Part shown: positions 3,818-30,566 of the stretch, one piece after another
Layout of the letters: every line of letters begins with the position of its first letter
Position numbering within the stretch: position 1 is the first letter of the stretch
Assembly (NCBI GenBank): GCA_025361285.1
Contig: JANYAP010000051.1
Span: 1 to 32,139 of the forward strand
Source of the DNA: Bacteroidales bacterium
GTDB taxonomy: Bacteria > Bacteroidota > Bacteroidia > Bacteroidales > JAAUTT01
Direction: 5' to 3'
DNA: 32,139 nt
The notes under the pieces: model-generated
Database searches by the model: none
Seen by the model: only the letters and a program-made list of their open reading frames with translations
Told to the model about the DNA's origin: nothing
Position numbers and translations under genes: made by a program

Positions 3818-4001
3818 AATAAATAAAAACTTCATTGCAGCTTATTTTATGTTGCAATTTGATGGTTAATAATTGCAATATTATTTAATATCATACACCA
3901 TTAATTGTTCACTGCCAAAAATTTAACAGATTTATGCTTGTTAATTTCTTGCCAAATAAACATTTCTAAGAAAACTAAAGAAAGAAAATTCTCGAACATG
4001 G

Positions 4002-4030
4002 TTGTAATAATAAAATAAATTGTATTTTTG
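4002..4030 (+). promoter_or_regulatory. Promoter of the rplM-rpsI-rpsB-tsf block
   Basis: TTG at 4002-4004, an 18-base spacer and TATTTTTG at 4023-4030 match the Bacteroidota -33/-7 consensus well. The start would be near 4037, giving a leader of about 55 bases. The preceding gap (3818-4001) is AT-rich and contains three ATTGCA-type words (3834-3839, 3853-3858, 3872-3879) that could form a weak hairpin. Confidence 0.75.
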
Positions 4031-4090
4031 CAGTCCATTTTACGATGGATTATTACGTATTAGCATATTAATTAAAAACTTAGATACAAG

Positions 4091-4546
4091 GTGGACACTT
4101 TGAGTTATAAAACGGTTTCGGTAAATAAGGCAACCGCAAATAAGGAGTGGATTGTGGTTGACGCAACAAATCAAACGTTGGGTCGATTCTCTTCAAGAGT
4201 TGCACAAATCCTTAGAGGAAAACATAGGCCTAGTTATTCCGAACACGTAGATTGCGGAGACAACGTGATTGTTCTTAATGCAGACAAAGTTCGGTTAACT
4301 GGTAAAAAATGGTCCGATAAAGTATATATCAGATATACAGGATACCCAGGAGGTCAGCGTTTTGCAACCGCAAAAGAATTAATGACAAAACATCCGATTG
4401 CATTAGTAGAAAAATCGGTAAGAGGCATGCTTCCAAAAAATCGTTTGGGCGATGCTATCTACGGTAATCTACACGTATATGCAGGAACTGAGCATCCTCA
4501 TGCAGCTCAACAACCAAAGGAATATAATATTAATACAATCAAATAG
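4091..4546 (+). CDS. rplM: 50S ribosomal protein L13
   Basis: 151-residue large-subunit protein. The family signature is seen: KEWIVVDATNQTLGR, HVDCGDNVIVLNADKVRLTGKKW, YTGYPGGQ, VRGMLPKNRLG, LHVYAGTEHPHAAQQP. The start is a GTG at 4091. The resulting MDTLSYKTVS N-terminus is the one typical of Bacteroidota L13, so it is preferred to the TTG nine bases later. It is first in the operon: rpsI follows after 5 bases. Confidence 0.97.
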   Translation: MDTLSYKTVSVNKATANKEWIVVDATNQTLGRFSSRVAQILRGKHRPSYSEHVDCGDNVIVLNADKVRLTGKKWSDKVYIRYTGYPGGQRFATAKELMTKHPIALVEKSVRGMLPKNRLGDAIYGNLHVYAGTEHPHAAQQPKEYNINTIK

Positions 4547-4551
4547 TTGGT

Positions 4552-4938
4552 ATGGAAGTTACTAATGCAATAGGGAGAAGAAAAGCAGCAGTTGCCCGTG
4601 TTTACCTCACTCCAGGTAAGGGTAATATTATAATTAACGAAAGAGATTTCAAAACATATTTCCCAAATTCACTACTTCAGTATATTGTTGAGCAACCACT
4701 TCATTTATTGGAAATTGCTCAAAAGTACGATATCAAAGTAAACCTCGACGGTGGTGGTATTAAGGGTCAGGCCGAAGCTTTGCGTTTGGGCATTACTCGT
4801 GCGCTAATTAAAATTGACGAAACCTGTAAACCAAAATTAAAACTTGCTGGTTTTACAACTCGCGATCCTCGCGAAGTAGAACGTAAAAAACCAGGTCGTC
4901 CGAAAGCACGTAAACGCTTCCAGTTCAGCAAACGTTAA
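4552..4938 (+). CDS. rpsI: 30S ribosomal protein S9
   Basis: 128-residue small-subunit protein. IGRRKAAVARVYLTPGKG at the N-terminus, GGGIKGQAEALRLGITRAL in the middle and the basic C-terminal tail KKPGRPKARKRFQFSKR are diagnostic. The tail normally reaches the P-site tRNA. The five-base gap to rplM shows co-transcription and probably coupled translation. Confidence 0.98.
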   Translation: MEVTNAIGRRKAAVARVYLTPGKGNIIINERDFKTYFPNSLLQYIVEQPLHLLEIAQKYDIKVNLDGGGIKGQAEALRLGITRALIKIDETCKPKLKLAGFTTRDPREVERKKPGRPKARKRFQFSKR

Positions 4939-5043
4939 TCGATATTATACGGTAGTTTAGTATCTAAATTGTTAAGACTTTCCAATGTTTTGGAGCTACT
5001 TAGCAATTGGTGAAAGAGAATGTAAACAATTAAAAAATAGTAA

Positions 5044-5928
5044 ATGTCAAGAGTATCAGTTCAACAATTATTGGATGCAGGTGTGCATTTTGGCCACCTT
5101 CGCAGAAAATGGAATCCAGCCATGGCGCCTTATATCTTCATGGAAAAGAACGGAATCCATATTATCGATCTTCATAAAACTCAGGCAAAGCTTGAAGAAG
5201 CTGCTTTAGCACTTAAAGCAATTGCAAAATCGGGTCGCAAAATATTATTTGTAGCCACAAAAAAGCAAGCTAAAGATATTGTTTCCGAACGTATCCAGTC
5301 AATTAACATGCCTTACGTAACCGAGCGCTGGCCAGGTGGTATGCTTACCAACTTCCCAACCATTCGTAAAGCAGTTAAAAAGATGTCGACCATCGATAAA
5401 ATGGCTACCGACGGTACATTCGACAACCTTTCGAAACGCGAAAAACTACAAATAGGACGTCAACGTGCTAAACTCGAAAAAAACTTAGGAAGTATTGTGG
5501 ATCTAACTCGTTTACCAGCTGCACTATTCGTAGTTGACGTTTCCAAGGAACATATCTCGGTTCGCGAAGCAAAACGTTTAAACATACCAGTATTCGGTAT
5601 GGTTGATACTAACTCGGATCCTAACTTAGTTGATTTTCCAATTCCAGCAAACGACGATGCTTCGGCTTCAATATCATTAATAATCGATGTTGTTAGTGCT
5701 GCAATTCAAGAAGGTTTGGGCGAACGTAAAAACGAACGCGACAAAGAAGATGGCGATAAGCCTGAAGGTGGAAAAGCCGATAAGAGTAAAGCTCGTAAAG
5801 GTGGCGACAAACCAAAAGCTAGAACTGAAAATCAACCACTTGAAGAAGAGGAATTAGCTATGCCAAAAGCCAAATTGGAAACTGGCATAATTAAAAAGAT
5901 AGCTAAGAAAGTTAAAATAGACGAATAA
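5044..5928 (+). CDS. rpsB: 30S ribosomal protein S2, with charged C-terminal extension
   Basis: 294 residues. Residues 1-225 are a normal S2: [62 protein letters not shown]. The remaining ~70 residues are an extension rich in Lys, Glu, Gly and Asp that ends in a basic helix ([10 protein letters not shown]). Bacterial S2 is usually about 240 residues. The 105-base gap after rpsI may hold leader regulation, but I see no named motif in it. tsf follows after 21 bases, the usual rpsB-tsf pair. Confidence 0.97.
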
Positions 5929-6814: not shown

Positions 6815-6843
6815 AAGAGAGAGCCGAAAGCTCTCTTTTTTTT
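6815..6843 (+). terminator. Rho-independent terminator after tsf
   Basis: AGAGAGC (6818-6824), loop CGAAA and GCTCTCT (6830-6836) form a perfect 7-bp stem, extendable by A/G-U pairs. Eight T bases follow (6836-6843). Confidence 0.9.
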
Positions 6844-7109
6844 GCTACCTACTATTAAAAGCAAACATGTTTTCTTTTAATAAGTTTTATATTTGCACAA
6901 TTGACAAAAGTAAAGTAAATACATAGAACTTGTAATTAAATATGTTATATTAAATGTTTGAGAAACAAACCCTCTACCAAAGCAATCTTAGAAAGTATGC
7001 TGTCATTCCGACGTAGGTCGAAATAACACTTAATTACATGAGTTATTTTATTACGCCGTCATGAATTTTTCTACAGATATTAATTAGTTAATAATCAAAT
7101 TATTATAAA
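6844..7109. other. tsf-pyrH intergenic region with REP-like fragment
   Basis: A 266-base spacer. It holds the pyrH -7 box (6888-6895) and, around 7001-7027, GTCATTCCGACG followed by TAGGTCGAAATAAC. That resembles, from memory, fragments of short palindromic repeats scattered in Bacteroidota genomes. No convincing gene is present; the longest AUG frame in the spacer that I checked is about 20 codons. Confidence 0.4.
6888..6895 (+). promoter_or_regulatory. Predicted -7 box for pyrH
   Basis: TATATTTG matches TAnnTTTG exactly. No good -33 TTTG lies at the right distance. If used, the pyrH leader would be about 200 bases long. Confidence 0.5.
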
Positions 7110-7823
7110 ATGGCAACATACAAACGGATTTTATTAAAACTTAGCGGCGAGGCATTAATGGCCGACAAACCTTATGGCATTGACACACAACGCTTAATAG
7201 AATACGCTGAGCAAGTGAAAGAAGCTGCTAATTTAGGGGTTAAAATAGGTATTGTAATAGGTGGAGGCAATATTTTCCGCGGTTTGCGCGGCGTAAGCGC
7301 TGGTTTCGACCGGGTTAAAGGCGATTATATGGGAATGCTTGCCACAGTTATTAATGGTTTAGCAATTGCAAGTGCTCTGGAAAGTATTGGAGCTAAAGCC
7401 CGCGTGCTTACTGCAATAGGTATGGAGCCTGTTGGCGAGCGATATAGCAAGCAAAAAGTGGAGGATGCATTTGCCAATGGCGAAATAGTAATTTTTACGT
7501 TTGGCACTGGTAATCCGTACTTTACAACCGATACCGCTTCGGCATTACGCGCCGTTGAAATGGATGCCGAAGTTCTATTAAAGGGAACCAGAGTTGACGG
7601 CGTTTATACTGCCGACCCTGAGAAAGACCCAAAGGCCGTAAAATTCGACGAAATAACGTTCGACGAAGCATATACACGAGGCTTAAATGTAATGGATATG
7701 ACCTCATTTACAATGTGTAAGGAGAATAATTTACCTGTAATAGTTTTCGATATGAACCAAAAAGGGAATCTGAAACGACTTCTATCTGGCGAAAAAATTG
7801 GAAGCTTGGTAAAGGTTAAATAA
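7110..7823 (+). CDS. pyrH: UMP kinase
   Basis: 237 residues, standard length. Phosphorylates UMP to UDP in pyrimidine nucleotide synthesis; cytosolic hexamer of the amino-acid-kinase fold. Seen: KRILLKLSGEAL at the N-terminus, IVIGGGNIFRG phosphate-binding loop, GDYMGMLATVINGLA, and TGNPYFTTDTASALRA, which contacts UMP and is diagnostic for PyrH. The C-terminal IVFDMNQKGNLKRLLSGEKIGSLV matches the family. It sits between tsf and frr, the common tsf-pyrH-frr order, but terminator and promoter signals separate it from tsf. Confidence 0.97.
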   Translation: MATYKRILLKLSGEALMADKPYGIDTQRLIEYAEQVKEAANLGVKIGIVIGGGNIFRGLRGVSAGFDRVKGDYMGMLATVINGLAIASALESIGAKARVLTAIGMEPVGERYSKQKVEDAFANGEIVIFTFGTGNPYFTTDTASALRAVEMDAEVLLKGTRVDGVYTADPEKDPKAVKFDEITFDEAYTRGLNVMDMTSFTMCKENNLPVIVFDMNQKGNLKRLLSGEKIGSLVKVK

Positions 7824-19001: not shown

Positions 19002-22000
19002 ATGAATAAGTATATCGCTCTGGTAGTCATATTACTTGCCGTTGCTCCGAGTGCGTTGGCTCAAAAATTCACTGGTTTTAAGGATACTGCAAGTTTTCCA
19101 AACGAACTTTCCACTATTCTTGGGGCTAACCTTCAAGTTGAAGAGGCAACCCTAATGACCAACTTTTCCCATTCGTGGCGTGGCAATGTATTTTCGTTAA
19201 ATGAAAAGGCCGATATTATGCAATTGGCCAGTTTAATGTACGATAGAAACGCTCGTAGCAATCAGTTTCAATCTCTTATACACTCCTTAATTTCACTAAA
19301 AAACAGGGCGAACAACCAAAGTAATTTCGAGGTATGGCTGAAGTTCCTGTTAAAGCATATAACTATTAAGCAAACCACTTTAACCAAATTAAACAGCTTA
19401 TTTGAAAATACAACAGATTTAAGTCGCGACAACTATTTGTATAATTCGGCAGCTGTTCAATGGAGATACTTTGGTCCCGATTATAAATTTCAAGTTGAAA
19501 ATGCTCTGTTAGTTGCCACTTTCGAAAAAGGAAATTTGACCTGCTATTCGAAACGCGACAGTATTATAATTAACCAAACATCGGGTACATACAGCATTAC
19601 CGATGGAAAGTGGCGAGGCAAAGGCGGCGTCGTAAATTGGGCTCGATCGGGCATGGATACACAAGAAGTTAACGCTAAGCTTACCAGATACTTAATTGAG
19701 CTAAACAAAGCCGAATACAAGGCCGATTCGGTAATGTTTACATACAATAAATATTTCAGCAAGCCAGTAATGGGCCAGTTAACCGATAAGGTAATGTATA
19801 TTGCTGGCTCCGAACATGCCACATATCCCGAATTTGCAACCTACAGCAAAAGGTATGTGTTTAAAGAGCTTTATCCTAACGTAGACTATGATGGTGGTTT
19901 TACCATGAAAGGCTCTAAAATTATAGGCTCCGGTGTTGAAGATAATTTGGCGAAAATTATTGTTAAAAAAGGCGCGAAAACGCTTATGGAAGTTAGTTCG
20001 AAATATTTTGTGCTTCGACCTGATCGAATTAACGGACTTAATTCATCGGTAAAAATATACATAGAGCGCGATTCGATATCTCATACAGATTTAGCTTTTA
20101 CATATTACGTAAAATTGAAAGAAGTTAATCTTATTCGCACCGAGGAATATTCATCGCAAAGCCCTTATTATGACACATATCATAAAATTGATATGGACTT
20201 CGAATTATTATCGTGGAAAATAGATCAACCACGAATAAACTTAACTATGGCTAAGAGTTCGTCCATTGGAAAAGCGCGTTTTGAATCGCTTAACTATTTC
20301 AACCAGGAGCAATACGAAAGCTTGCAAGGTATGGATTTAGAGCACCCATTGATGTCCATTCGAAAATTTGGCAAAAATTACACAAAAGAAGGATTTTCGG
20401 CTACTGCTTTTGCCAATTACGTAGGTCGCCAACTTAATGAAGTTAGGCAGGTATTAATGGAAATGACCAAAAAGGGCTTTATTTATTATGATTCCCAAAC
20501 CGATATGGTTCAAATTAAACAAAGGTTGCACAACTACGTAAGCTCGAGCTTCGGAAAAATTGATTACGATGTTATGGATTTTGCATCTAATACACAAGCA
20601 CCTCTCGAAAATGCAATACTCGACATGAACAACTTCGATCTTACAATAAACGGTATTCCACAAATTGCAGTTAGCGACTCACAAAACGTTATTATTTACC
20701 CTGCGCGCCAACAAATTATGCTCAAACAGAACCGTAGCTTTCAGTTCGATGGTGTAATTGAGGCTGGATTGTTTACTTTTTATGGCAGTAATTTTTATTT
20801 CGATTATAATAACTTCAAAATCAATCTTCAAAATGTCGATTCGGTTTCTATTATGGTACTTACAAGCGAATTAGATAATTTTGGCCGACCAATAAAGCGA
20901 AGAGTAAATAATGTTATTCAACATCTTACAGGCGATATACTTATCGACAAGCCCGACAATAAATCGGGTCGAAAAAGTTATGCCGAATACCCTATTTTTT
21001 CAAGCCGAGGTAATTCTCTCGTATATTACCAACGTCAAGATATCGAAAAAGGTGTTTATCCCGAGGAAAGCTTCTTCTTCGAAATATATCCCTTTGTGCT
21101 CGACAGCTTAGATAATTTCAGAAAGGAAGGCATGCAGTTTCAGGGTAAGTTCCTGTCGGCTGGCATTTTACCTCCGATGGAACAAAAATTATTGCTTCAA
21201 ACCGACTATTCGCTTGGTTTCAAATTTAACCCTGGTGAGGAAGGCATTCCCGTTTACGACGGAAAAGCTAAACTATTTGCAAATATTCAGCTTAGCAACA
21301 ACGGGTTACGTGCCGATGGAAAGCTAAACTACATAACTTCAACTACTACATCGAAAGATTTTAAACTATACCCCGATTCGATGAATACACAATCGACCGA
21401 TTTTACTATTGCAGAGCAAACCGCTGGAACACAATATCCTACTGCTGGGGCGAAAGACAATTATGTGCATTGGATGCCCAAAAAAGACGTGATGTTCATA
21501 AAACAAGGCTCAGCACCTTTCCAGATGTTTAACGACCAAACAAACTTAGTTGGAAACTTAATTCTACGACCAAAGGGATTAACTGGCGGAGGAACTATGA
21601 ACCTTACATCGGCCGAACTACAATCGAATTTATTCCAGTATGGAGCTAAAATTATCGATGCCGACACATCAAAATTTCTCTTGAAATCGCTTCATAAAGA
21701 AGGATATACGGTGCTTACCGAACGAAATATTAATTCTCATATCGATTTCGGAATGCAAAAAGGCGAATTTAATGCAAACGACGATTATACTCTTGTGGAA
21801 TTTCCTGAAAATAAATACCTTAGCTATCTCGACTATTTTAAGTGGAATATGACCGAAAAAACACTCGAAATGGGAGCAAAGCGACTTGCAAATGCAGCTG
21901 TACCCAGTTCGAAAAGAAAAAAACTACGTCCTAGAAACGACGATTTTCATCGTTTTGAGGAAGAGCCTATTGGGCCACGGTATATTTCAACTCATTATCA

Positions 22001-23690
22001 GCAAGATTCGCTCAATTTTGTAGCGCCCTTGGCAATTTACGATTACCAAAAAAACCTCATAAATGCATCGGAAGTTAAGCTAATAAGAGTTGCCGATGCT
22101 ATTATATACCCCAAAGATGGCAAGGTTACCGTGGCCGAAGCTGCCCAAATGCAATCTATTTTTAAAAGCACAATTGTAGCTAATTATATCGATCGGTTTC
22201 ACACTATTTACGATGCCGATGTTAATATTCAAGGTCGAAACGCCTTTACTGGTGCAGGAAAATACGATTATATCGACGAAACAAGTAAACCTCAGGTTGT
22301 AAATTTTACTAATATTGAAGTAGATAAGGAATTACACACCATTGCTAAAGGTACAGTAATTGAAGACGACGACTTTACATTAAGTCCAGACTTTGGTTTT
22401 CAAGGTACGATAAGGTTAAATTCCACAAAGCCATTGCTTACTTTCGATGGCGGAGCTAGCATAAAAGCCAACTGCACGCATCTTACACCTTCATGGCTAA
22501 AATTCGAAACCGAAATCGACCCGAAAGCAATTTATATTCCTATCGATGGTAATCCATTGAATATCAATAATATCAATATTTTTGCAGGAATATTCCTCGC
22601 GCCAGATTCTATTCATATTTACCCATCATATTTATCCTCCCGCCGAGGTTACAACGATCAGTATATCACCACATCTCAAGGATATTTATATTTCAATAAA
22701 ACCGAAATGAAATACGAAATAGCCTCGAAAGAAAAGCTAGCCGCCAACGATTCGGCAGGTAACTATTTAAGTTTGCACAAAAACGATTGCATTGAGTACG
22801 GTGAAGGAAAAATTAATTTGACCTCCGATTTAGGCCAGGTAAAATTGAATGCCTACGGAAACGCCAGCTTCAACCTTGTTAGTAAAGAGGTAAATCTCGA
22901 TATTCTTGTTGGAATCGATTTCTTTTTCGACGAAAGCTTAATGCGTTTTGTTGCCAGCAAAATTGATAGCTTTCCCAATTTGAAAGGCGTTGATATTACT
23001 CGCAACAACTACATTAAGTCGATGCGCGAAATTATGGGAACTAGTAAAACCCAAAAATATTTAACCGATGTGTCGGTTTTTGGTAAACCCAAGGAATTTC
23101 CTGCCGAATTGCTGCACACCCTTAATATCACCCACTTAACACTAAAATGGAACGACGAAACTAACTCGTTTCAATCGTACGGAAAAATTGGCGTAGGTAA
23201 TATTCTTAATTACCAGATTAATAAGGAGGTAGAAGGTTATTTCGAAATTGTTCGCAAACGAAGCGGCGATGTAATGAACATATTCCTAAAACTCGACGAA
23301 AATAACTATTTCTACTTTGGCTATACTCGCGGGCAAATACAAGCATATTCGTCGAATGCCACTTTCGTGGAAACTTTAACCAAAATGCCTCTTAAGGTTC
23401 GACAACTCGACACCGAAAAAGGTCAAACGCCTTATAGCTATATGGTTACTTCCGATACCAAGTTTCGTACGTTCATGCGTAATTACAACAAACATTTAAA
23501 AATTAATGTTAACGAAAATTCCGAGGTTTCACCAAGTGAAAGAGCCGCAGAACCTTCTAATAATGAACCATTGGAGCCCAATAACAACAATCTCGAAAAC
23601 AATAAAAATAGCAACCAGCTTCAGGAAAAGCCTGAACTAAAGGAAGATATGCCGGAAAACAAAGAAGGCGAGGTTATTGAAGTGAAATAA
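19002..23690 (+). CDS. Giant secreted protein of unknown function (1562 aa)
   Basis: I do not recognise a named domain. The first ~20 residues are a classic signal peptide (NKYIALVVILLAVAPSALAQ). Residues 20-400 are mixed helix/strand. From about 540 on the protein is beta-rich, with alternating polar/hydrophobic strands and G-rich turns. An internal repeat is visible: LSNNGLRADGKLNY near 757-800 parallels LRPKGLTGGGTMNL near 848-890, each followed by an S-x2-F/L-x3-Y/G pattern. Phrases such as DADVNIQGRNAFTGAGKYDYID and VNFTNIEVDKELHTIAKG recall LptA/OstA-like beta-taco strands, but this is only an impression. The last ~60 residues are disordered and rich in N, E, P. It lacks a T9SS-type C-terminal domain that I can see. 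It precedes the propeller/ferredoxin genes in the same direction; the 60-base gap leaves co-transcription open. Confidence 0.75.
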   Translation: MNKYIALVVILLAVAPSALAQKFTGFKDTASFPNELSTILGANLQVEEATLMTNFSHSWRGNVFSLNEKADIMQLASLMYDRNARSNQFQSLIHSLISLKNRANNQSNFEVWLKFLLKHITIKQTTLTKLNSLFENTTDLSRDNYLYNSAAVQWRYFGPDYKFQVENALLVATFEKGNLTCYSKRDSIIINQTSGTYSITDGKWRGKGGVVNWARSGMDTQEVNAKLTRYLIELNKAEYKADSVMFTYNKYFSKPVMGQLTDKVMYIAGSEHATYPEFATYSKRYVFKELYPNVDYDGGFTMKGSKIIGSGVEDNLAKIIVKKGAKTLMEVSSKYFVLRPDRINGLNSSVKIYIERDSISHTDLAFTYYVKLKEVNLIRTEEYSSQSPYYDTYHKIDMDFELLSWKIDQPRINLTMAKSSSIGKARFESLNYFNQEQYESLQGMDLEHPLMSIRKFGKNYTKEGFSATAFANYVGRQLNEVRQVLMEMTKKGFIYYDSQTDMVQIKQRLHNYVSSSFGKIDYDVMDFASNTQAPLENAILDMNNFDLTINGIPQIAVSDSQNVIIYPARQQIMLKQNRSFQFDGVIEAGLFTFYGSNFYFDYNNFKINLQNVDSVSIMVLTSELDNFGRPIKRRVNNVIQHLTGDILIDKPDNKSGRKSYAEYPIFSSRGNSLVYYQRQDIEKGVYPEESFFFEIYPFVLDSLDNFRKEGMQFQGKFLSAGILPPMEQKLLLQTDYSLGFKFNPGEEGIPVYDGKAKLFANIQLSNNGLRADGKLNYITSTTTSKDFKLYPDSMNTQSTDFTIAEQTAGTQYPTAGAKDNYVHWMPKKDVMFIKQGSAPFQMFNDQTNLVGNLILRPKGLTGGGTMNLTSAELQSNLFQYGAKIIDADTSKFLLKSLHKEGYTVLTERNINSHIDFGMQKGEFNANDDYTLVEFPENKYLSYLDYFKWNMTEKTLEMGAKRLANAAVPSSKRKKLRPRNDDFHRFEEEPIGPRYISTHYQQDSLNFVAPLAIYDYQKNLINASEVKLIRVADAIIYPKDGKVTVAEAAQMQSIFKSTIVANYIDRFHTIYDADVNIQGRNAFTGAGKYDYIDETSKPQVVNFTNIEVDKELHTIAKGTVIEDDDFTLSPDFGFQGTIRLNSTKPLLTFDGGASIKANCTHLTPSWLKFETEIDPKAIYIPIDGNPLNINNINIFAGIFLAPDSIHIYPSYLSSRRGYNDQYITTSQGYLYFNKTEMKYEIASKEKLAANDSAGNYLSLHKNDCIEYGEGKINLTSDLGQVKLNAYGNASFNLVSKEVNLDILVGIDFFFDESLMRFVASKIDSFPNLKGVDITRNNYIKSMREIMGTSKTQKYLTDVSVFGKPKEFPAELLHTLNITHLTLKWNDETNSFQSYGKIGVGNILNYQINKEVEGYFEIVRKRSGDVMNIFLKLDENNYFYFGYTRGQIQAYSSNATFVETLTKMPLKVRQLDTEKGQTPYSYMVTSDTKFRTFMRNYNKHLKINVNENSEVSPSERAAEPSNNEPLEPNNNNLENNKNSNQLQEKPELKEDMPENKEGEVIEVK

Positions 23691-23750: not shown

Positions 23751-25178
23751 ATGCAAAATCGCACCGAAAAAATTATTCTTACTATAGTTATCGTAATTGC
23801 CATTGCAACGTTTTGTTATTGGTTATATTACAACCCAGTAAAGGATTTAACGGTTAATTTGCCAGGCCTCGATAACCGTCCTTCAAAAGGCGAAAGTGCC
23901 GACACAATGGCAGTTATTGGCGAAAAGTTTAAGGAATATACAACATATACTTCATCGCTAACAGGTAAATGGCCTAGGTTTAGAGGTGCCGATATCGACA
24001 ATATCAATAAAGAAAAAATAAAGCTTATAGATAATTGGGGCAGCAGCAGACCTAAAATTCTTTGGAAAACCGATCTTGGCGAAGGACACGCCGCGCCAGT
24101 AATATACAATGGAAAAGTATATCTGCTCGATTACGACGAACGCAAGAAAAGCGATGCGTTGCGTTGCTTTGCTCTCGAAAATGGCATCGAGCTTTGGCGA
24201 CGATGGTATAGCGTTAACCTAAAGCGCAATCATGGCATGTCGCGCACTTTGCCTGCAATTACCGATAAGTATATTGTTACCATTGGTCCTAAATGTCACG
24301 TAATGTGCTGTAATCCAACCAATGGCAATCTTTTATGGGGTATCGATTTGGTTAAAACCTATAAAGTTGAAGTTCCGCTTTGGTACACAGGTCAATGCCC
24401 TCTTATAGTGAACGATACCGCAATTATTGCCGTTGGTGGAAACGCACTTATGATAGGCGTTGAATGTGCCTCAGGCAAAGTTGTTTGGAAAACGCCAAAC
24501 CCCGACAATTGGAAAATGTCGCACTCATCCATCATTCCTATTACTTTTGGCGGAAAAAAAATGTACGTGTATTGCGCTATTGGCGGTATAATAGGGGTGT
24601 CGGCCGAAGGAATTGATAAAGGCGAAATTCTATGGAAAACCGATAAATTTAAACCATCGGTATGTGCACCTTCGCCAGTTATAATAGGCACCGGGAAACT
24701 ATTTATTACCGCTGGATATGGCGCTGGTAGTGCTGTTATTCAGTTAATTAAAACCGACAGCACATACTCGGTTAATATTATTCAACAATATCGCCCAAGC
24801 GAAGGTATTGCCTCCGAACAACAAACTCCTATTCTATATAACAATTTTCTATTTTCCATTCAACCAAAAGATGGGGGAACAGCTCGCAATCAGTTTGTTT
24901 GCTGTAATCCAAGCAATTGCAAAACAATTTTATGGACAAGCAGTAAAGCCGATAGATACGGGTTAGGTCCATACATTGTTGCCGATGGTAAATTCTTCAT
25001 TTTAAACGACGATGGAACTTTAATAATTGCCAAAGCCAGCGCAACAAAATTTACACTTCTCGACAAAGCCAAAATTATGGACGGACAAGATGCATGGGGG
25101 CCACTTGCAATTGCCGATGGATACCTACTTATGCGCGACTCCAAACAAATGGTGTGTATTGATATAAAAACTAAATAA
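23751..25178 (+). CDS. Membrane-anchored PQQ-like beta-propeller protein
   Basis: 475 residues. An N-terminal signal anchor (about 7-27, IILTIVIVIAIATFCYWLYY) is followed by a linker and an eight-bladed-type PQQ-like repeat domain facing the periplasm. Blades are marked by tryptophan-docking repeats such as LWKTDLGEGHAAPVIYNGKVYLLDYD, GNLLWGIDL, GKVVWKTPNP and GEILWKTDKF. There are 12 cysteines in the propeller, including C182HVMCC187 and VCCNPSNC, far more than usual for periplasmic propellers. I recall closely similar proteins (LRC, KRNHGMSRT, WYTGQCPLI, WKMSHSS motifs) from Planctomycetes and other phyla, with unknown role. No quinoprotein dehydrogenase catalytic signature is evident, so PQQ binding is unproven. 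The NHL-like propeller gene follows after 6 bases. Confidence 0.8.
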   Translation: MQNRTEKIILTIVIVIAIATFCYWLYYNPVKDLTVNLPGLDNRPSKGESADTMAVIGEKFKEYTTYTSSLTGKWPRFRGADIDNINKEKIKLIDNWGSSRPKILWKTDLGEGHAAPVIYNGKVYLLDYDERKKSDALRCFALENGIELWRRWYSVNLKRNHGMSRTLPAITDKYIVTIGPKCHVMCCNPTNGNLLWGIDLVKTYKVEVPLWYTGQCPLIVNDTAIIAVGGNALMIGVECASGKVVWKTPNPDNWKMSHSSIIPITFGGKKMYVYCAIGGIIGVSAEGIDKGEILWKTDKFKPSVCAPSPVIIGTGKLFITAGYGAGSAVIQLIKTDSTYSVNIIQQYRPSEGIASEQQTPILYNNFLFSIQPKDGGTARNQFVCCNPSNCKTILWTSSKADRYGLGPYIVADGKFFILNDDGTLIIAKASATKFTLLDKAKIMDGQDAWGPLAIADGYLLMRDSKQMVCIDIKTK

Positions 25179-25184
25179 ACTTCT

Positions 25185-26168
25185 ATGAAACAAAAACTTG
25201 TTATCGCTCTGTCGCTTATACTTCTTATTGGAGTTATATTTCTTATTTATAACGATTTATTCAACGGCAACCCTGCCGATTCAACAAATGCAACAGAATA
25301 TAATTTGGAGAAGCTAAAGCAAATCGACTCTTCGCTTATTTGTTATAACGAAGTGATTACCATTGACTTAACTATGGAAAGTGTTAACGCACTTACTATC
25401 GACAGTAATTCGAATATTTATGTAGCTGGCGACAACGAAATTCAGATTTTCGACAAGACGTTGCAAAAAACACACACCATAAAGCTCGATAGTTCAGCTA
25501 ATTGCTTGGCAGTTTTCGACAATACCCTTTATTTGGGTGTTGGCAATTATGTTGAAGTTTACACATCGAAGGGCGTAAAACTCTCTCGATGGAAAAGCTT
25601 TAATTCAAAAGGGTATATAACCTCCATAGCAGTTAACAAAACAAATGTTTATGCTGCCGATGCCGAAAATAAGGCTATTTTGCGATACAATTTAAATGGC
25701 GTTTTGCTTAATGTAATCGGGAAGAAGGATAAAGATAAAAGTATTGATGGTTTCATAATACCAAGTATGTATTTCGATTTGGCAATAAGTGCCGAAAACG
25801 AATTATGGGTAGCAAACCCTGGCAAGCACGAGCTTATTAATTTTACCGAAAAAGGCGATTTTCGAACTTCGTGGGGCATTGCATCAATGCAAACAACAGG
25901 TTTTGCTGGATGTTGTAATCCTATTCATTTTTGTATGCTTTCAAACGGAAGTTTTGTTACCTTCGAGAAGGGTTTAGATCGCATTAAACTGCACGACCAA
26001 ACAGGTAAGTTAGAGTGCATTGTAGCATCGTTTTCCGATGCAAACGCACAAGCACTTGATAATTGCAGTATTGGAGCACGTGTGCACGATTTGGCAACCG
26101 ACTTGCAAGGAAATATATATGCATTAGATGCGAAAGACAAAAAAATTCGTGTTTTCTCAAGAAAGTAA
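25185..26168 (+). CDS. Membrane-anchored NHL/6-bladed beta-propeller protein with GCCNP motif
   Basis: 327 residues. N-terminal hydrophobic anchor (about 5-22, LVIALSLILLIGVIFLIY), then a six-bladed NHL-like propeller: repeated strands ALTIDSNSNIYVAGDNEIQIFD, SIAVNKTNVYAADAENKAILRYN, DLAISAENELWVANPGKHELINF, DLATDLQGNIYALDAKDKKIRVF. Between blades lies G242-CCNPIHFC-250, a paired-Cys plus Cys motif that I recall as conserved in this family and that could bind a metal or cofactor. The start is 6 bases after the PQQ-like gene stop, so the two propellers are made together and probably interact at the outer face of the inner membrane. Function unknown. Confidence 0.75.
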   Translation: MKQKLVIALSLILLIGVIFLIYNDLFNGNPADSTNATEYNLEKLKQIDSSLICYNEVITIDLTMESVNALTIDSNSNIYVAGDNEIQIFDKTLQKTHTIKLDSSANCLAVFDNTLYLGVGNYVEVYTSKGVKLSRWKSFNSKGYITSIAVNKTNVYAADAENKAILRYNLNGVLLNVIGKKDKDKSIDGFIIPSMYFDLAISAENELWVANPGKHELINFTEKGDFRTSWGIASMQTTGFAGCCNPIHFCMLSNGSFVTFEKGLDRIKLHDQTGKLECIVASFSDANAQALDNCSIGARVHDLATDLQGNIYALDAKDKKIRVFSRK

Positions 26169-26178
26169 CTAAGTAATG

Positions 26179-26336
26179 TGTAGGAAATAAGTTCCTACAA
26201 GGCGCGCAAAAATTTTAATACCGGAGCTTACTACAGTAAGTGAGAAACTTAGCGAAGCGTTCACGAACACCATTAAAAAATAATGGATTTGTGAGTAATT
26301 TAAAATTTTTGCAGCAACGTAGTAGGAGCTTATTTA
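26179..26336. repeat. Large imperfect palindromic element (MITE/REP-like or structured RNA)
   Basis: Nested inverted repeats: outer arms 26186-26198 and 26322-26334 (12/13 pairs), inner arms 26206-26218 and 26300-26312 (13/13, GCAAAAATTTTAA type). Inside are a CTTAC/GTAAG hairpin (26227-26240) and CCATTA/TAATGG (26270-26286). The left end also forms its own hairpin TGTAGGAA-ATAAG-TTCCTACA (26179-26199). It fills the gap between the NHL-like gene and the ferredoxin gene. I recall similar intergenic repeats in other Bacteroidota, but no search was run. Confidence 0.7.
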
Positions 26337-26393
26337 ATACATATTACTAATCTGTTGCAAACAACATATAATTATGCATTTAGCACTTTTATT

Positions 26394-26954
26394 ATGGCAG
26401 AAAAAAAACAATACAATCGGCGAGATTTTATAAATAATAGCTTGCGAGCAGGAATTGCAGTAAGCCTTGCTGGCATTACCGTAGCACTTACAACCCGTGC
26501 CCTTTCAGGAAAATCGGTTTGGCAACTTAACCCTGCCAAATGCGTGCAATGCGGGCGTTGTGCTACAAGCTGTATATTGGAAACATCGGCTGTTAAATGC
26601 GTACACGTTTACGATATGTGCGGATACTGCGATTTGTGTGGCGGTTACCTAAGACCCGACACGAAAGAGTTGAATACCGCTGCCGAAAACCAGCTATGCC
26701 CAACATCGGCAATATCGCGCAAATACATCGAAGAACCATTTTTCGAATACCAAATTATTGAGGAACTGTGCATAGGATGCGGCAAATGCGTTAAAGGATG
26801 TGGTGCTTTTGGTAACGGATCGCTACAACTGCAAATAAACCATAAACTATGTGTTAACTGCAACCAGTGCGCCATTGCGAGAGTTTGTCCTTCCGAAGCT
26901 TTCAGTTTGGTATCGGCAAGCGATGCGTATTTATATCAGGGTAAAAAAATGTAA
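26394..26954 (+). CDS. Tat-exported multi-[4Fe-4S] ferredoxin
   Basis: 186 residues from the ATG at 26394. The frame is open back to a TTG at 26355, but only the ATG start gives a normal twin-arginine signal: NRRDFINNS (RR at 9-10), then a hydrophobic AGIAVSLAGITVALTTRA. Mature protein has cysteine sets C50-x2-C-x2-C-x3-C60, C76-x2-C-x2-C82, C126-x2-C-x2-C-x3-C136 and C153-x2-C-x2-C-x5-C165, enough for about four iron-sulfur clusters. Folding before Tat export fits a cofactor-bearing periplasmic electron carrier. It would pass electrons to or from the membrane polyferredoxin encoded next, 49 bases downstream. NapG/NosR-partner-like by layout; donor and acceptor unknown. Confidence 0.85.
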   Translation: MAEKKQYNRRDFINNSLRAGIAVSLAGITVALTTRALSGKSVWQLNPAKCVQCGRCATSCILETSAVKCVHVYDMCGYCDLCGGYLRPDTKELNTAAENQLCPTSAISRKYIEEPFFEYQIIEELCIGCGKCVKGCGAFGNGSLQLQINHKLCVNCNQCAIARVCPSEAFSLVSASDAYLYQGKKM

Positions 26955-26964
26955 GTTTAATAAA

Positions 26965-26999
26965 ATCTAAGTGTCTAGTAATTAGTACTTAGTACTAAG
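26965..26999. repeat. Period-7 tract before the polyferredoxin gene
   Basis: Five 7-base units: ATCTAAG, TGTCTAG, TAATTAG, TACTTAG, TACTAAG. The next heptad overlaps the ATG at 27004. Same layout as the tract before lpd. Confidence 0.65.
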
Positions 27000-27003
27000 A
27001 AAA

Positions 27004-28266
27004 ATGAAAAACTATCTCGTTAAACTAATACTTGCACTTATCTTGTTCATTCAGGCATTTAACTTATATGCTGTTCAGCGATTTCCGAAGCCCGAATTTG
27101 AAACAAAATATTCGCAGCCTACCATGCAAACGCCTTGTCCAAGGTCGGTTTACATGGAGTATTTCGATGTGGCAGTGCTTGTAGCTAGCTTATCGCTAAT
27201 TACTTGGCTAATCCTTAAAAAAAGGTCGCGGCAAGGCGTTTTCTGGACGACCATCTTTTCGCTTTTGTATTTTGGTTTTTACCGCAAAGGTTGTATTTGT
27301 GCGGTAGGGTCGTTGCAGAATGTAACTATGGCACTGTTTAATCCCGATTATTATATACCCATTACAGCCATTGCGTTTTTCATTATTCCATTAGTGTTTA
27401 CTATGTTTTACGGGCGAACTTTTTGTGCAGGTATTTGCCCATTAGGTGCCATTCAGGATATTTTTGTACTTCGTCCAATGCCTCTAAAACAATGGGTTCA
27501 AACAATCTTAGGACTTATCCCTTATATTTATCTGGGTTTAGCCGTTTTATACGCTGCCACTGGAACCGATTTTATAGTATGCCGATACGATCCGTTTGTT
27601 GGTATATTTAGGCACAATGGCACGTTTATGATGTTCGCTATTGGAGGCGTTCTTCTGCTGATAGGCGTATTCGTTGCACGACCTTATTGCCGGTTTTTAT
27701 GCCCTTATGGCGTACTTCTTAATTTTGTAAGCCGCGTATCGAAAAACCATTTATCAATAGCGCCAGGTAAATGCATCGAATGCCGATTGTGCGAAAATTC
27801 GTGCCCATTTGGAGCAATAAATAAACCCACGCCAACTCGAAATGTCGAAAAACGTAACGTTATGGTAAAGCGGTTTGCAATATATTTTGTAATAACTCCT
27901 CTACTTATTTTATTAGGTGGGTGGACAGGATCACGATTTCACGAAAACCTTGCTAAGGTGCACCCAAAAGTTAGGCTAGCAAACGAACTTTTACTTGCCA
28001 ACAACAATAAAATAAGTTCATTATCTATGGAAATATCAACATTTAAATCGATGGGCAAGCCTTTAGATAAATTATATGCCGAGGCGAACATAATTATCGA
28101 TAAATTCTATATAGGAGGTTGGATTCTTGGCGGATTTTTAGGTTTGGTTTTTGGCTTAACGCTAGTTAATCTATCTGTATTTCAATACCGTACCGATTAT
28201 ACAACTAATAAGGGCACATGTTTTAGTTGTGCCCGTTGTGTCGATTTTTGTCCGGTAAAAAAATAA
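27004..28266 (+). CDS. Membrane polyferredoxin (NapH/NosR/CcoG-type 4Fe-4S protein)
   Basis: 420 residues with an N-terminal signal-like segment and about seven transmembrane helices. Cysteine motifs: C97-I-C99 (KGCICAVG), C141-x3-C145P and C229-x3-C233P, the CxxxCP pair typical of NapH/NosR, then two ferredoxin motifs, C257-x2-C-x2-C-x3-C267P and C406-x2-C-x2-C-x3-C416P. Such proteins shuttle electrons across or along the membrane, in NosR from quinol towards periplasmic reductases. NosR's FMN-binding domain is absent and no separate FMN-binding gene is in the window. Together with the Tat ferredoxin and two propellers it suggests a dedicated redox module. A helical loop (about 318-358) separates the last helices. 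Confidence 0.88.
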   Translation: MKNYLVKLILALILFIQAFNLYAVQRFPKPEFETKYSQPTMQTPCPRSVYMEYFDVAVLVASLSLITWLILKKRSRQGVFWTTIFSLLYFGFYRKGCICAVGSLQNVTMALFNPDYYIPITAIAFFIIPLVFTMFYGRTFCAGICPLGAIQDIFVLRPMPLKQWVQTILGLIPYIYLGLAVLYAATGTDFIVCRYDPFVGIFRHNGTFMMFAIGGVLLLIGVFVARPYCRFLCPYGVLLNFVSRVSKNHLSIAPGKCIECRLCENSCPFGAINKPTPTRNVEKRNVMVKRFAIYFVITPLLILLGGWTGSRFHENLAKVHPKVRLANELLLANNNKISSLSMEISTFKSMGKPLDKLYAEANIIIDKFYIGGWILGGFLGLVFGLTLVNLSVFQYRTDYTTNKGTCFSCARCVDFCPVKK

Positions 28267-28453: not shown

Positions 28454-28492
28454 TTCTCGGTATTGGGTACTTAAAATACAATATTCGAAACT

Positions 28493-29822
28493 ATGTCGAA
28501 CTTAAAACATGAATACATTCCAAGATTAGTTGACAAACATCTTGTTGAATGGAAAAATGATAAGGACAAAAAAACCTTTGTTGTTGCGTGGTGTACGACA
28601 AGTTGGGAAATCATCGGCTGTTCGGAATTTGTCGCAATATTTTAAGCATTACATTGAGGTAAATTTCGAGTTACAAAAAGATATTGCAGCAATTTTTGAG
28701 AACTCGCTCGAACCACAACAAATATGTTCAAAGCTATCGGCAATTTATGGCATTCCAATAATTCCAGGTCAAACATTGGTTTTTTTCGATGAAATTCAAG
28801 CTTGTATTCCTGCAATTTCATCATTACGTTTTTTTTTCGAAAAATGTTCCGAATTACATGTAGTTGCAGCAGGTTCGTTGTTTGAATTTGCTTTAAGCGA
28901 AATACCATCGTTTGGCGTTGGTCGCATACGTTCCATGTTTATGTATCCGTTTTCGTTTGATGAATTTTTGCTTGCCAACAATGAAAAATTGTTAATTGAA
29001 GAAAAAAGACAATCGTCGGCGCAAAATCCGTTGTTAAAACCATTGCACGATAAACTATTAGACTATTTAAAAGTTTTTTTAATTATTGGTGGGTTGCCCG
29101 AAGTAGTTCGTAAGTATATTACTGCAAAAGATTTTATTAAATGTCAGGAAATACTTAACGATTTGGTAATAACGTATACCGACGATTTTGCAAAATACAA
29201 GAAACGGTTCTCTCCATTAATAACAACAAATGTTTTTAATACGTTAGCAAAAAACTCGGGTAGTAAATTTGTTTATTCTACTATCTCCGAAAACGTTAAA
29301 AGCTATCAGGTTAAGGAAGCAATTGCATTGTTAACCAAAGCCGGAATGGTTATTCCGGTAACCCACACTGCGGCCAACGGCATACCTTTAGGCGCAGATA
29401 CAAACGAAAAATTTCGAAAATTCCTAATTTTCGATACCGGAATCCAACAAGTAATGCTAGGCTTGAATATTGGTGAAATATTGTTGCACAATGAGTTTGA
29501 GGTGATAAACAAGGGATTTATTGCCGAAACGTTTGCAGGACTCGAATTGTTGAAATACAATTCGTGCTACCAAAGGGATTCATTATATTACTGGCAACGT
29601 GAAGAAAAATCGGGCAATGCCGAGGTCGATTATGTTATTCTGCAACAAAATGAAGTTGTTCCGATTGAAATAAAATCGGGTACAAAAGGTTCTATGCAAA
29701 GTATGCAGTATTTTATGCAAAAAAAGAATCTTTATAAAGGAATACGATGTTCTACCGAAAATTTTGGTAAATATGCTAATATTGAAATTGTGCCGTTATA
29801 TGCTATTTCTAATTTGCTTTAA
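28493..29822 (+). CDS. AAA_14/DUF4143 ATPase, frameshifted at an A7 tract
   Basis: Two frames together encode a standard family member. The ATG at 28493 starts MSNLKHEYIPRLVDKHLVEW, the usual N-terminus (IPRLxDxxLxxxL), up to KNDKDKK. At seven A bases (28568-28574) the frame is lost and would stop at 28643-28645, a 50-residue product. The frame from 28530 (TTG) continues with KKPLLLRGVRQVGKSSAVRNL. Deleting one A joins them perfectly. The rest is intact: Walker A RQVGKS, Walker B VFFDEIQACIP, AAGSLFEFAL, the DUF4143 region, and a C-terminal PD-(D/E)XK-like GNAEVDYVILQ...PIEIKSG. Family role is unclear, associated with accessory and defence regions. The shift may be a sequencing error, decay, or on/off switching by slippage. 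Confidence 0.85.
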
Positions 29823-30062: not shown

Positions 30063-30566
30063 CTACTTAGTTTTAAATTCTTGCACCGTATTGTTAAGAA
30101 CATTAGCCGATTCAAAAAGTTTAACAGAGTTTTCGGCAAGCATATCGGAAATTGTAGTGTTTTGCTGACTTATGCTACTTAATGCATTTACAGCGATTTC
30201 AATTTGATGTATCGACTCTTTTATATCGTCTCCATCGGTTGCAATTTGAGCTACTCCCTGAACAAGTTCATTGAGCTGATCGACTAGTTCTTTTACGGTG
30301 TCTTCCGATTGTTTAGAAACTTCCTTTCCTTTAGCCGAAGCTGCCCTTATTTCGCTTACTGCGTCCTGAGTGCGCGCCTTTTCAACAAACTGACTAAAAT
30401 AGCCGTTTATCATCAACGCACTTTGTTGGTTATACGAATCGGCCTTTAAAAGAAACTGCTGTTTCGACGATTTTATAATCCGTTGAGTATAAAAAATGGT
30501 TAATGGGATTAATACTAATAGAATTATCCCCAAAAAATAAACAGTAATTTTGTTTTTAAGTTTCAT
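30063..30566 (-). CDS. Remnant of a methyl-accepting chemotaxis protein (internal deletion)
   Basis: 167 residues. The N-terminus is a normal receptor start: cytosolic KLKNK, one transmembrane helix (about 8-27), then ~30 residues of the exported sensor domain (SSKQQFLLKADSYNQQSALMINGYFSQFVEKA). It then passes directly into coiled coil like the far C-terminal part of these receptors (SSISQQNTTISDMLAENSVKLFESANVLNNTVQEFK). Missing are most of the Cache-type sensor, the second membrane helix, HAMP and the conserved signalling hairpin (EAARAGE region), so it cannot contact CheA/CheW in the usual way. The polypeptide would also put cytosolic helices outside. Best read as an in-frame deletion derivative, probably non-functional; next to repeat copy B. 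Confidence 0.65.
   Translation of the reverse strand: MKLKNKITVYFLGIILLVLIPLTIFYTQRIIKSSKQQFLLKADSYNQQSALMINGYFSQFVEKARTQDAVSEIRAASAKGKEVSKQSEDTVKELVDQLNELVQGVAQIATDGDDIKESIHQIEIAVNALSSISQQNTTISDMLAENSVKLFESANVLNNTVQEFKTK

Follow-up and report, generated by a model that had tools for sequence, protein, structure and literature searches.

The window analysed here is a stretch of 32,139 nucleotides from a Bacteroidales bacterium (assembly GCA_025361285.1, contig JANYAP010000051.1, read on the forward strand over its full length), and our subject is a run of four genes within it, which we call A, N, G and H (Table 1). The original prediction, made from the letters of the window, had seen in them two membrane-anchored beta-propellers, an exported ferredoxin and a membrane polyferredoxin that might together form an undescribed redox module. 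The four open reading frames lie on the plus strand where it had placed them (23751-25178, 25185-26168, 26355-26954 and 27004-28266) and A and N are indeed 6 bases apart. Profile matches agree with its family calls: A matches PQQ_2 at 50.9 bits, N matches SBBP and NHL at 28.3 and 21.1 bits, G is made of Fer4 clusters and H combines Fer4_5 with Fer4. For G, the ATG at 26394 (MAEKKQYNRRDF) is more likely to be the start than the TTG at 26355. All four genes are under purifying selection when compared with L068, a Bacteroidales metagenome-assembled genome (MAG) that is the nearest relative found (A 77% identical), with a nonsynonymous divergence (dN) of 0.10-0.22 and silent sites near saturation.

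Table 1. Features of the A-N-G-H locus in the window (PQQ, pyrroloquinoline quinone; Tat, twin-arginine translocation; MITE, miniature inverted-repeat transposable element; pLDDT, mean predicted local distance difference test score of the model).
Feature	Position	Strand	Description	Remark
Gene A	23751..25178	+	PQQ-like 8-bladed propeller behind one N-terminal helix, 475 aa	Predicted model, pLDDT 88.8
Gene N	25185..26168	+	NHL-like 6-bladed propeller, N-terminal helix, invariant GCCNP, 327 aa	Predicted model, pLDDT 89.3
MITE-like repeat	26172..26348	.	177 bp with 27-nt terminal inverted repeats, between N and G	No part in function
Gene G	26394..26954	+	Tat-signal ferredoxin, four [4Fe-4S] motifs	Reading frame listed from TTG 26355
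Gene H	27004..28266	+	NapH-like membrane polyferredoxin, two CX3CP, one CxC, two 4Fe-4S motifs, 420 aa	

A, N, G and H make up half of a more extensive gene set that is strongly conserved. The order that recurs in relatives, on a single strand, is P-A-N-(s)-G-H-T-EF-D-Q, where P stands for one to six PQQ-like propeller genes, s for a small Tat gene, EF for a fused NuoE-NuoF flavoprotein, D for a relative of BfuA/GltD, and T and Q for further propellers; s and Q are often, but not always, present. Gene counts were made on a main set of loci, the best 80 of 546 relatives, using just those whose contig reaches far enough and leaving out L047, where A was not called. N is present in 73/75 of these (missing in L071 and L075), H in 67/68, T in 58/60, EF in 52/54 and D in 47/49, and P lies upstream of A in 69/72. 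G was called in 65/71, but five of the six misses are errors of the longest-frame caller, which over both sets of loci overlooked G in six (L049, L116, L118, L127, L138 and L145), where tblastn finds it; L078 is the sole real miss. Median gaps in the main set are 15 bases for A-N, 11 for G-H, 25 for H-T, 6.5 for T-EF and 6 for EF-D, and 222 bases between N and G, where s is often found. The idea of a conserved, apparently undescribed redox module is supported by co-occurrence and gene order, but the four genes on which it was based are a fragment of a longer operon.

A second set came from 26 longer stretches fetched around A matches in other genomes, with 26 loci counted, the window included. 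It overlaps the main set (L078 and L034 have the same contig layout), and the two are therefore not independent. At L034/L078, the locus of genome G167, A, N and two P genes lie on a long contig with no G, H, T, EF or D beside them, and in L040 (genome G128) H and EF are each split into two open reading frames by frameshifts or assembly errors. Beyond the operon's own families, no neighbour cluster recurs in more than 9 of 111 loci, as judged by clustering alone and with not all neighbours named. There is no sign among these neighbours of a named nitrate or nitrous oxide reduction system to which the genes would belong.

Co-occurrence was assessed in 198 genomes of the window's order (cut-offs E<1e-100 for A, E≤1e-20 for N, E≤1e-40 for H and E≤1e-80 for D). 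A is found in 36 of them, N in 34, H in 33 and D in 26, the last three always in genomes that have A. The full-length EF fusion (at least 56% identity and no internal stop, a criterion of our own applied among the matches listed) occurs in at least 30 genomes, again all within the 36, and none of the 162 genomes without A has N, H, D or the EF fusion. The carriers are spread over 28 families, at least 13 of which also contain non-carriers, and the window's own genus includes two genomes (G064 and G169) without A, N, H or D. The presence of carriers and non-carriers in the same families makes shared ancestry alone a poor explanation for this pattern; Fisher tests of the co-occurrence table ignore phylogeny. 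The set is also kept where linkage is lost: in G016 the genes are spread over four contigs, one each for A, N and H and one shared by EF and D, and in the window's genome (G000) A-N-G-H lie on contig C160, T-EF on C151 and D on C177, these last proteins being 55% (T), 72% (EF) and 63% (D) identical to those of G154. The L068 locus stops after H, as does the window. In two genomes, G136 and G164, A lies at the edge of a contig and both N and H are missing.

The carriers belong to one Bacteroidota order (Bacteroidales/Marinilabiliales by the titles of the relatives), with Marinifilum, Labilibaculum, Ancylomarina, Perlabentimonas and Marinilabiliaceae JC017 among the cultured ones by their record titles. 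The original prediction mentioned similar propellers in Planctomycetes as a hint of a widespread system. The searches covered Bacteroidota and showed no spread across phyla: the best 80 of 546 loci are all Bacteroidota by title, bar two odd MAG titles, and in a draw of 395 Bacteroidota genomes none of the 394 others matched at E≤1e-50, the window's own genome being the sole match (of the twenty other rows listed from this draw, five belong to the window's order and the remaining fifteen to its class).

The predicted models of A and N are confident and match propellers of the PDB at Z scores of about 30. For A, the closest folds are YxaL (Z 32.6), tetrathionate hydrolase (32.0) and BamB (31.6), which are tied; quinoproteins are absent among the best 50 fold matches listed. 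Profile matches of A in the PDB are weak, the best being tetrathionate hydrolase (E 9e-6), an enzyme with a catalytic Asp (Asp325), with quinoprotein ethanol dehydrogenase at 4.5e-4 and BamB at 2e-3. A therefore shares the fold of the PQQ-like 8-bladed propellers and, more distantly, of the quinoprotein dehydrogenases, but differs from them in having strongly conserved motifs of its own (GEGH, KRNHGxSRT, WYTGQCP, MSHSS, GLGPY and DAWGP) and in reaching no NCBIfam cut-off (12.4 vs. 480 bits for the quinoprotein dehydrogenase model TIGR03075 and 23.8 vs. 285 bits for the BamB model TIGR03300). These motifs just precede the strands assigned, on secondary structure only, to the innermost position in the blades. 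In quinoproteins this is where the active site lies and where cofactor and substrate are bound. The position of the motifs in the model suggests that A has a putative active or binding site, of a kind that they do not specify. The PQQ biosynthesis gene pqqC scores over its cut-off in 0/198 genomes, with one weak match in a genome lacking A, and is likewise found in 0/14 control genomes; PQQ is not mentioned in PMC7382037 or PMC11129491.

The propeller cysteines, which had been taken to suggest cofactor, metal or thiol chemistry, are unevenly conserved. The 12 announced for A are all present, but among 26 orthologues only six are conserved (C186 and C216 invariant; C139, C239, C384 and C469 in 22-24), while C182, C187, C275, C305, C385 and C390 are found in 1-11. 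N has seven, of which the C243-C244 pair of its GCCNP motif is invariant in 23/23 orthologues and the remainder are not, the trailing C250 of the proposed GCCNP...C motif occurring in 2/23. Roughly 8 of the 19 cysteines are thus well conserved and the rest are not, so that the argument from paired cysteines stands in part. Quinoprotein dehydrogenases have a vicinal CC pair next to the cofactor, and a weak profile alignment places the single C216 of A opposite the second Cys of this pair in 6zcw, a PQQ ethanol dehydrogenase. A cysteine mechanism modelled on tetrathionate hydrolase, for which a catalytic cysteine had been assumed, was abandoned, as was the support it lent to a cysteine funnel: according to the accessible part of PMC10859504, this propeller enzyme works without PQQ and its sole cysteine is not catalytic.

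G has the four or so cluster motifs expected of it, with 16 cluster cysteines invariant in 20/20 proteins, and a Tat motif in 77/87. Conservation counts for H, EF and D leave out truncated proteins (90/94, 71/82 and 55 or 58 of 72 kept, respectively). The eight ferredoxin cysteines of H are present in 89-90 of 90 proteins, as are seven cysteines of its membrane region (C97, C99, C141, C145, C193, C229 and C233, forming one CxC, two CX3CP and one single cysteine); the two CX3CP motifs, C141/C145 and C229/C233, are found in 90/90. Such motifs are important in NapH and NosR for passing electrons to partners in the periplasm (PMC5928378, in excerpt). H shares with the NapGH and NosR/RdhC systems its two CX3CP and two 4Fe-4S motifs and the adjoining four-motif Tat ferredoxin. 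It differs from all of these in being coupled to NADH flavoprotein genes and in having no other family that recurs alongside in more than 9 of 111 loci. It differs from NapGH in reaching 53 bits vs. a cut-off of 213 for the NapH model TIGR02163, and from NosR/RdhC in that no FMN-binding domain was found, this family being absent among the 17 Pfam matches of H up to E 1. The NapG/MauM model is absent among the best 25 of 39 NCBIfam matches listed for G; MauMN is a system that we take to be comparable to the H/G pair. The motif CxxCH occurs in 1 of 881 proteins of the nine families, and the operon therefore carries no c-type cytochrome. A reductive dehalogenase was considered as the terminal enzyme, hybrid forms having been reported from the same genera (PMC6797604, in excerpt); the family PF13486 is found in 0/198 genomes and equally in none of the controls, which makes this count uninformative. 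Elsewhere in the window's genome, contig C63 (L060) encodes a second, distant H-like protein (3977-5476, 28% identical) and, near it, a 109-aa Tat ferredoxin-like protein (6831-7160), perhaps another membrane ferredoxin system.

By its sequence, EF fits most of the criteria for the core of a bifurcating Bfu (HydBC) enzyme. Its domains are, in order, NuoE, a second thioredoxin-like [2Fe-2S] stretch, the NuoF flavin mononucleotide (FMN)/NADH domain, its 4Fe-4S domain and a C-terminal double 4Fe-4S domain. The EF of L087 exceeds the Pfam cut-offs for the Nuo51 FMN domain PF01512 (148 bits), the NADH_4Fe-4S domain PF10589 (115) and the 4Fe-4S ferredoxin domain PF14697 (37), with the NuoE-like PF01257 (175 bits) fused at the N terminus; the SLBB domain PF10531, at 20.8 bits (E 3.5e-4), falls below its 27-bit cut-off. 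These BfuB domain criteria were checked by Pfam, whereas the definition in PMC9304861 uses InterPro entries. An H-x4-C-x4-C motif corresponding to the B2 cluster site of BfuB is found in 71/71 EF proteins, one residue shorter than the published H525, C531 and C536 (H-x5-C-x4-C); the His ligand of the B2 cluster is missing in just 8/1558 BfuB proteins and is not present in non-bifurcating homologues (PMC9304861, in excerpt). EF has in common with the HydABC-type and Nfn-Bfu (Sporomusa-type Nfn) enzymes the NuoE and NuoF-like FMN core, the second thioredoxin-like [2Fe-2S] domain, the C-terminal double 4Fe-4S domain and the B2-type His and Cys, and D is a similar 2Fe-2S/4Fe-4S/flavin adenine dinucleotide (FAD) partner. 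The differences lie in the fusion of NuoE with NuoF, in the apparent absence of D's NADP-binding half and in the addition of a membrane polyferredoxin, a Tat ferredoxin and propellers. Such a function is absent from those listed in the accessible part of PMC9304861, which gives 17-18 of 57 Bfu clades without an assigned function; EF may already be one of its numbered clades of this kind.

D consists of a 2Fe-2S domain, a GltD-type 4Fe-4S domain, a FAD motif and a C-terminal 4Fe-4S motif. It seems to be without the NADP-binding half, judging from partial profile matches and motif spacing. In the D of L087, Pyr_redox_2 is matched in one stretch over positions 1-111 of 291, and the best stretches of gltA and PRK12814 cover 33-234 of 449 and 4-296 of 657, each having a second stretch besides. 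The spacing from the FAD motif GxGxxG to VFxxG is 113-120 in 42/55 proteins, and a second Rossmann-like motif is found in 6/55. Loss of this half would argue for an acceptor other than NADP+. T is membrane-anchored, with three hydrophobic helices and a PQQ-like propeller. The s proteins are Tat proteins of 65-87 aa, mostly with a C-x5-C-x2-C-x5-C pattern (e.g. L087 12449-12655); no Pfam or NCBIfam match was found for the one member scanned, and s is a possible family of tiny exported Fe-S proteins. In the window, the place where many relatives have s is occupied by the 177-bp repeat, of which the genome has about 20 near full-length copies, the window copy counted (the others 84-97% identical), plus fragments.

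From gene content, order and co-occurrence, the conserved cofactor motifs and the predicted folds of A and N, we infer a single pathway with outward flow, a bifurcating EF and catalytic propellers. A, N, G and H would be the envelope half, and cytoplasmic EF and D together with T the other half, of one outward electron relay fed by NADH and ferredoxin, a reading that we consider on balance probable. NADH, and probably reduced ferredoxin as well, would supply EF with electrons, and D would receive them and hand them on to H. H would move them through the inner membrane via its two ferredoxin motifs and seven conserved membrane-region cysteines, and the Tat-exported G, in many relatives also s, would pick them up in the periplasm. 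From G they would reach the anchored propellers (A, N, P and T), where the terminal acceptor would be bound or reduced. What supports this reading most is the co-occurrence of the propellers with exported ferredoxins, a membrane polyferredoxin and a flavoprotein for NADH. Context suggests two candidate acceptors. One is Fe(III)/Mn(IV), both of which the carrier Labilibaculum manganireducens 59.10-2M (L085) can reduce; the other is sulfur compounds, since the names in the titles of several carriers hint at an origin in sulfidic waters. More tentatively, the operon may represent a quinone- and cytochrome-independent respiration or electron dumping, in which EF-type bifurcation would feed a polyferredoxin wire and exported ferredoxins, with cysteine-bearing propellers as the terminal reductase of, for example, Fe(III)/Mn(IV) or low-potential sulfur compounds; we regard this extension as possible but doubtful.

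Several observations weigh against such a relay. Linkage is looser in the set of 26 loci, with N in 23/26, G in 20/26 (21 with L049), H in 21/26, T in 19/26, EF in 16/21 and D in 4/6. Neither A nor N has a predicted redox cofactor. A relative of EF at E≤1e-120 occurs in 141/198 genomes, mostly as separate NuoF/HydB-like genes, EF being specific just as a fusion. Genome G167 (97% complete) keeps A, N and P on a 220-kb contig and has no H, D or EF fusion, indicating that the propellers can exist without the conduit. D is below its cut-off in 10 of the 36 A genomes. In four of these ten (G023, G090, G112 and G192), clustering places a D-family gene next to EF; one is cut by the fetched stretch and three are shorter (323-366 aa), suggesting that some D proteins are without part of the machinery. 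Lastly, NapH proper is thought to draw electrons from menaquinol (PMC5928378, in excerpt), and H could for that reason use menaquinol too.

Were H and G to act like NapGH, carrying electrons from menaquinol to the periplasmic propellers, EF and D would form a separate transhydrogenase sharing the operon by chance. The two CX3CP and two ferredoxin motifs of H are those of NapH (PMC5928378, in excerpt), and EF and D resemble the Sporomusa-type Nfn-Bfu (PMC9304861, in excerpt). We nevertheless find this unlikely: EF and D follow H and T at median gaps of 6-25 bases and co-occur with H even when unlinked, D seems to be without its NADP-binding half, and H lies far under the NapH cut-off (53 vs. 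213 bits). Inward flow, in which the propellers would oxidise a periplasmic substrate and the chain would feed NAD+ and ferredoxin, appears quite improbable. Its electron donor would have to lie near -400 mV, and no catalytic cofactor suited to such a donor can be seen. The PQQ-like propeller superfamily to which A belongs does include quinoprotein dehydrogenases, and Bfu enzymes are described as reversible (PMC9304861, in excerpt), but A scores 12 vs. 480 bits at the quinoprotein dehydrogenase cut-off and pqqC is over its cut-off in none of the 198 genomes, although the same is true of the controls. That the propellers are BamB-like scaffolds or assembly factors, with the ferredoxins serving the maturation of another exported redox protein, is very unlikely, since A retains enzyme-like invariant loops and scores 24 vs. 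285 bits at the BamB family cut-off, and no other family stands beside the operon in more than 9/111 loci, even though BamB ranks with the folds most similar to A (Z about 31) and G167 keeps A, N and P without the conduit.

Directly upstream of the four genes (19002-23690) lies a gene for a 1562-aa exported-looking protein, for which no Pfam match exceeds its cut-off and NCBIfam gives none. Downstream, the ATPase gene at 28530-29822 (AAA_14/DUF4143) seems to carry a frameshift close to its start, in the region 28491-28580. Inspected by eye, an upstream frame opening at the ATG 28491 yields a plausible N terminus as far as a run of A, where another frame takes over; this looks like a sequencing error or a broken gene. 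On the minus strand, 30063-30566 encodes a 167-aa piece whose translation resembles, by eye, the ends of chemotaxis receptors, possibly a decayed gene.

In the open-licence PMC literature, searched by title and abstract, we found no description of this gene set; subscription papers and preprints were outside that scope. The set is thus apparently undescribed, as a new combination of known parts. To our knowledge, the routes other than H2 and organic acids by which fermenting Bacteroidota in anoxic sediments and sulfidic waters get rid of electrons are largely open. The gene set in cultured Marinifilum, Labilibaculum, Ancylomarina and Perlabentimonas is a concrete candidate for such electron disposal. 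For L. manganireducens 59.10-2M, a carrier of the operon that reduces Fe(III) and Mn(IV), the describers name NrfHA and a ferric reductase as possibilities in the accessible part of PMC5760507 and ask for closer study to specify the genes. If the outward relay is true, the Bfu family of bifurcating enzymes would gain a membrane-crossing output.

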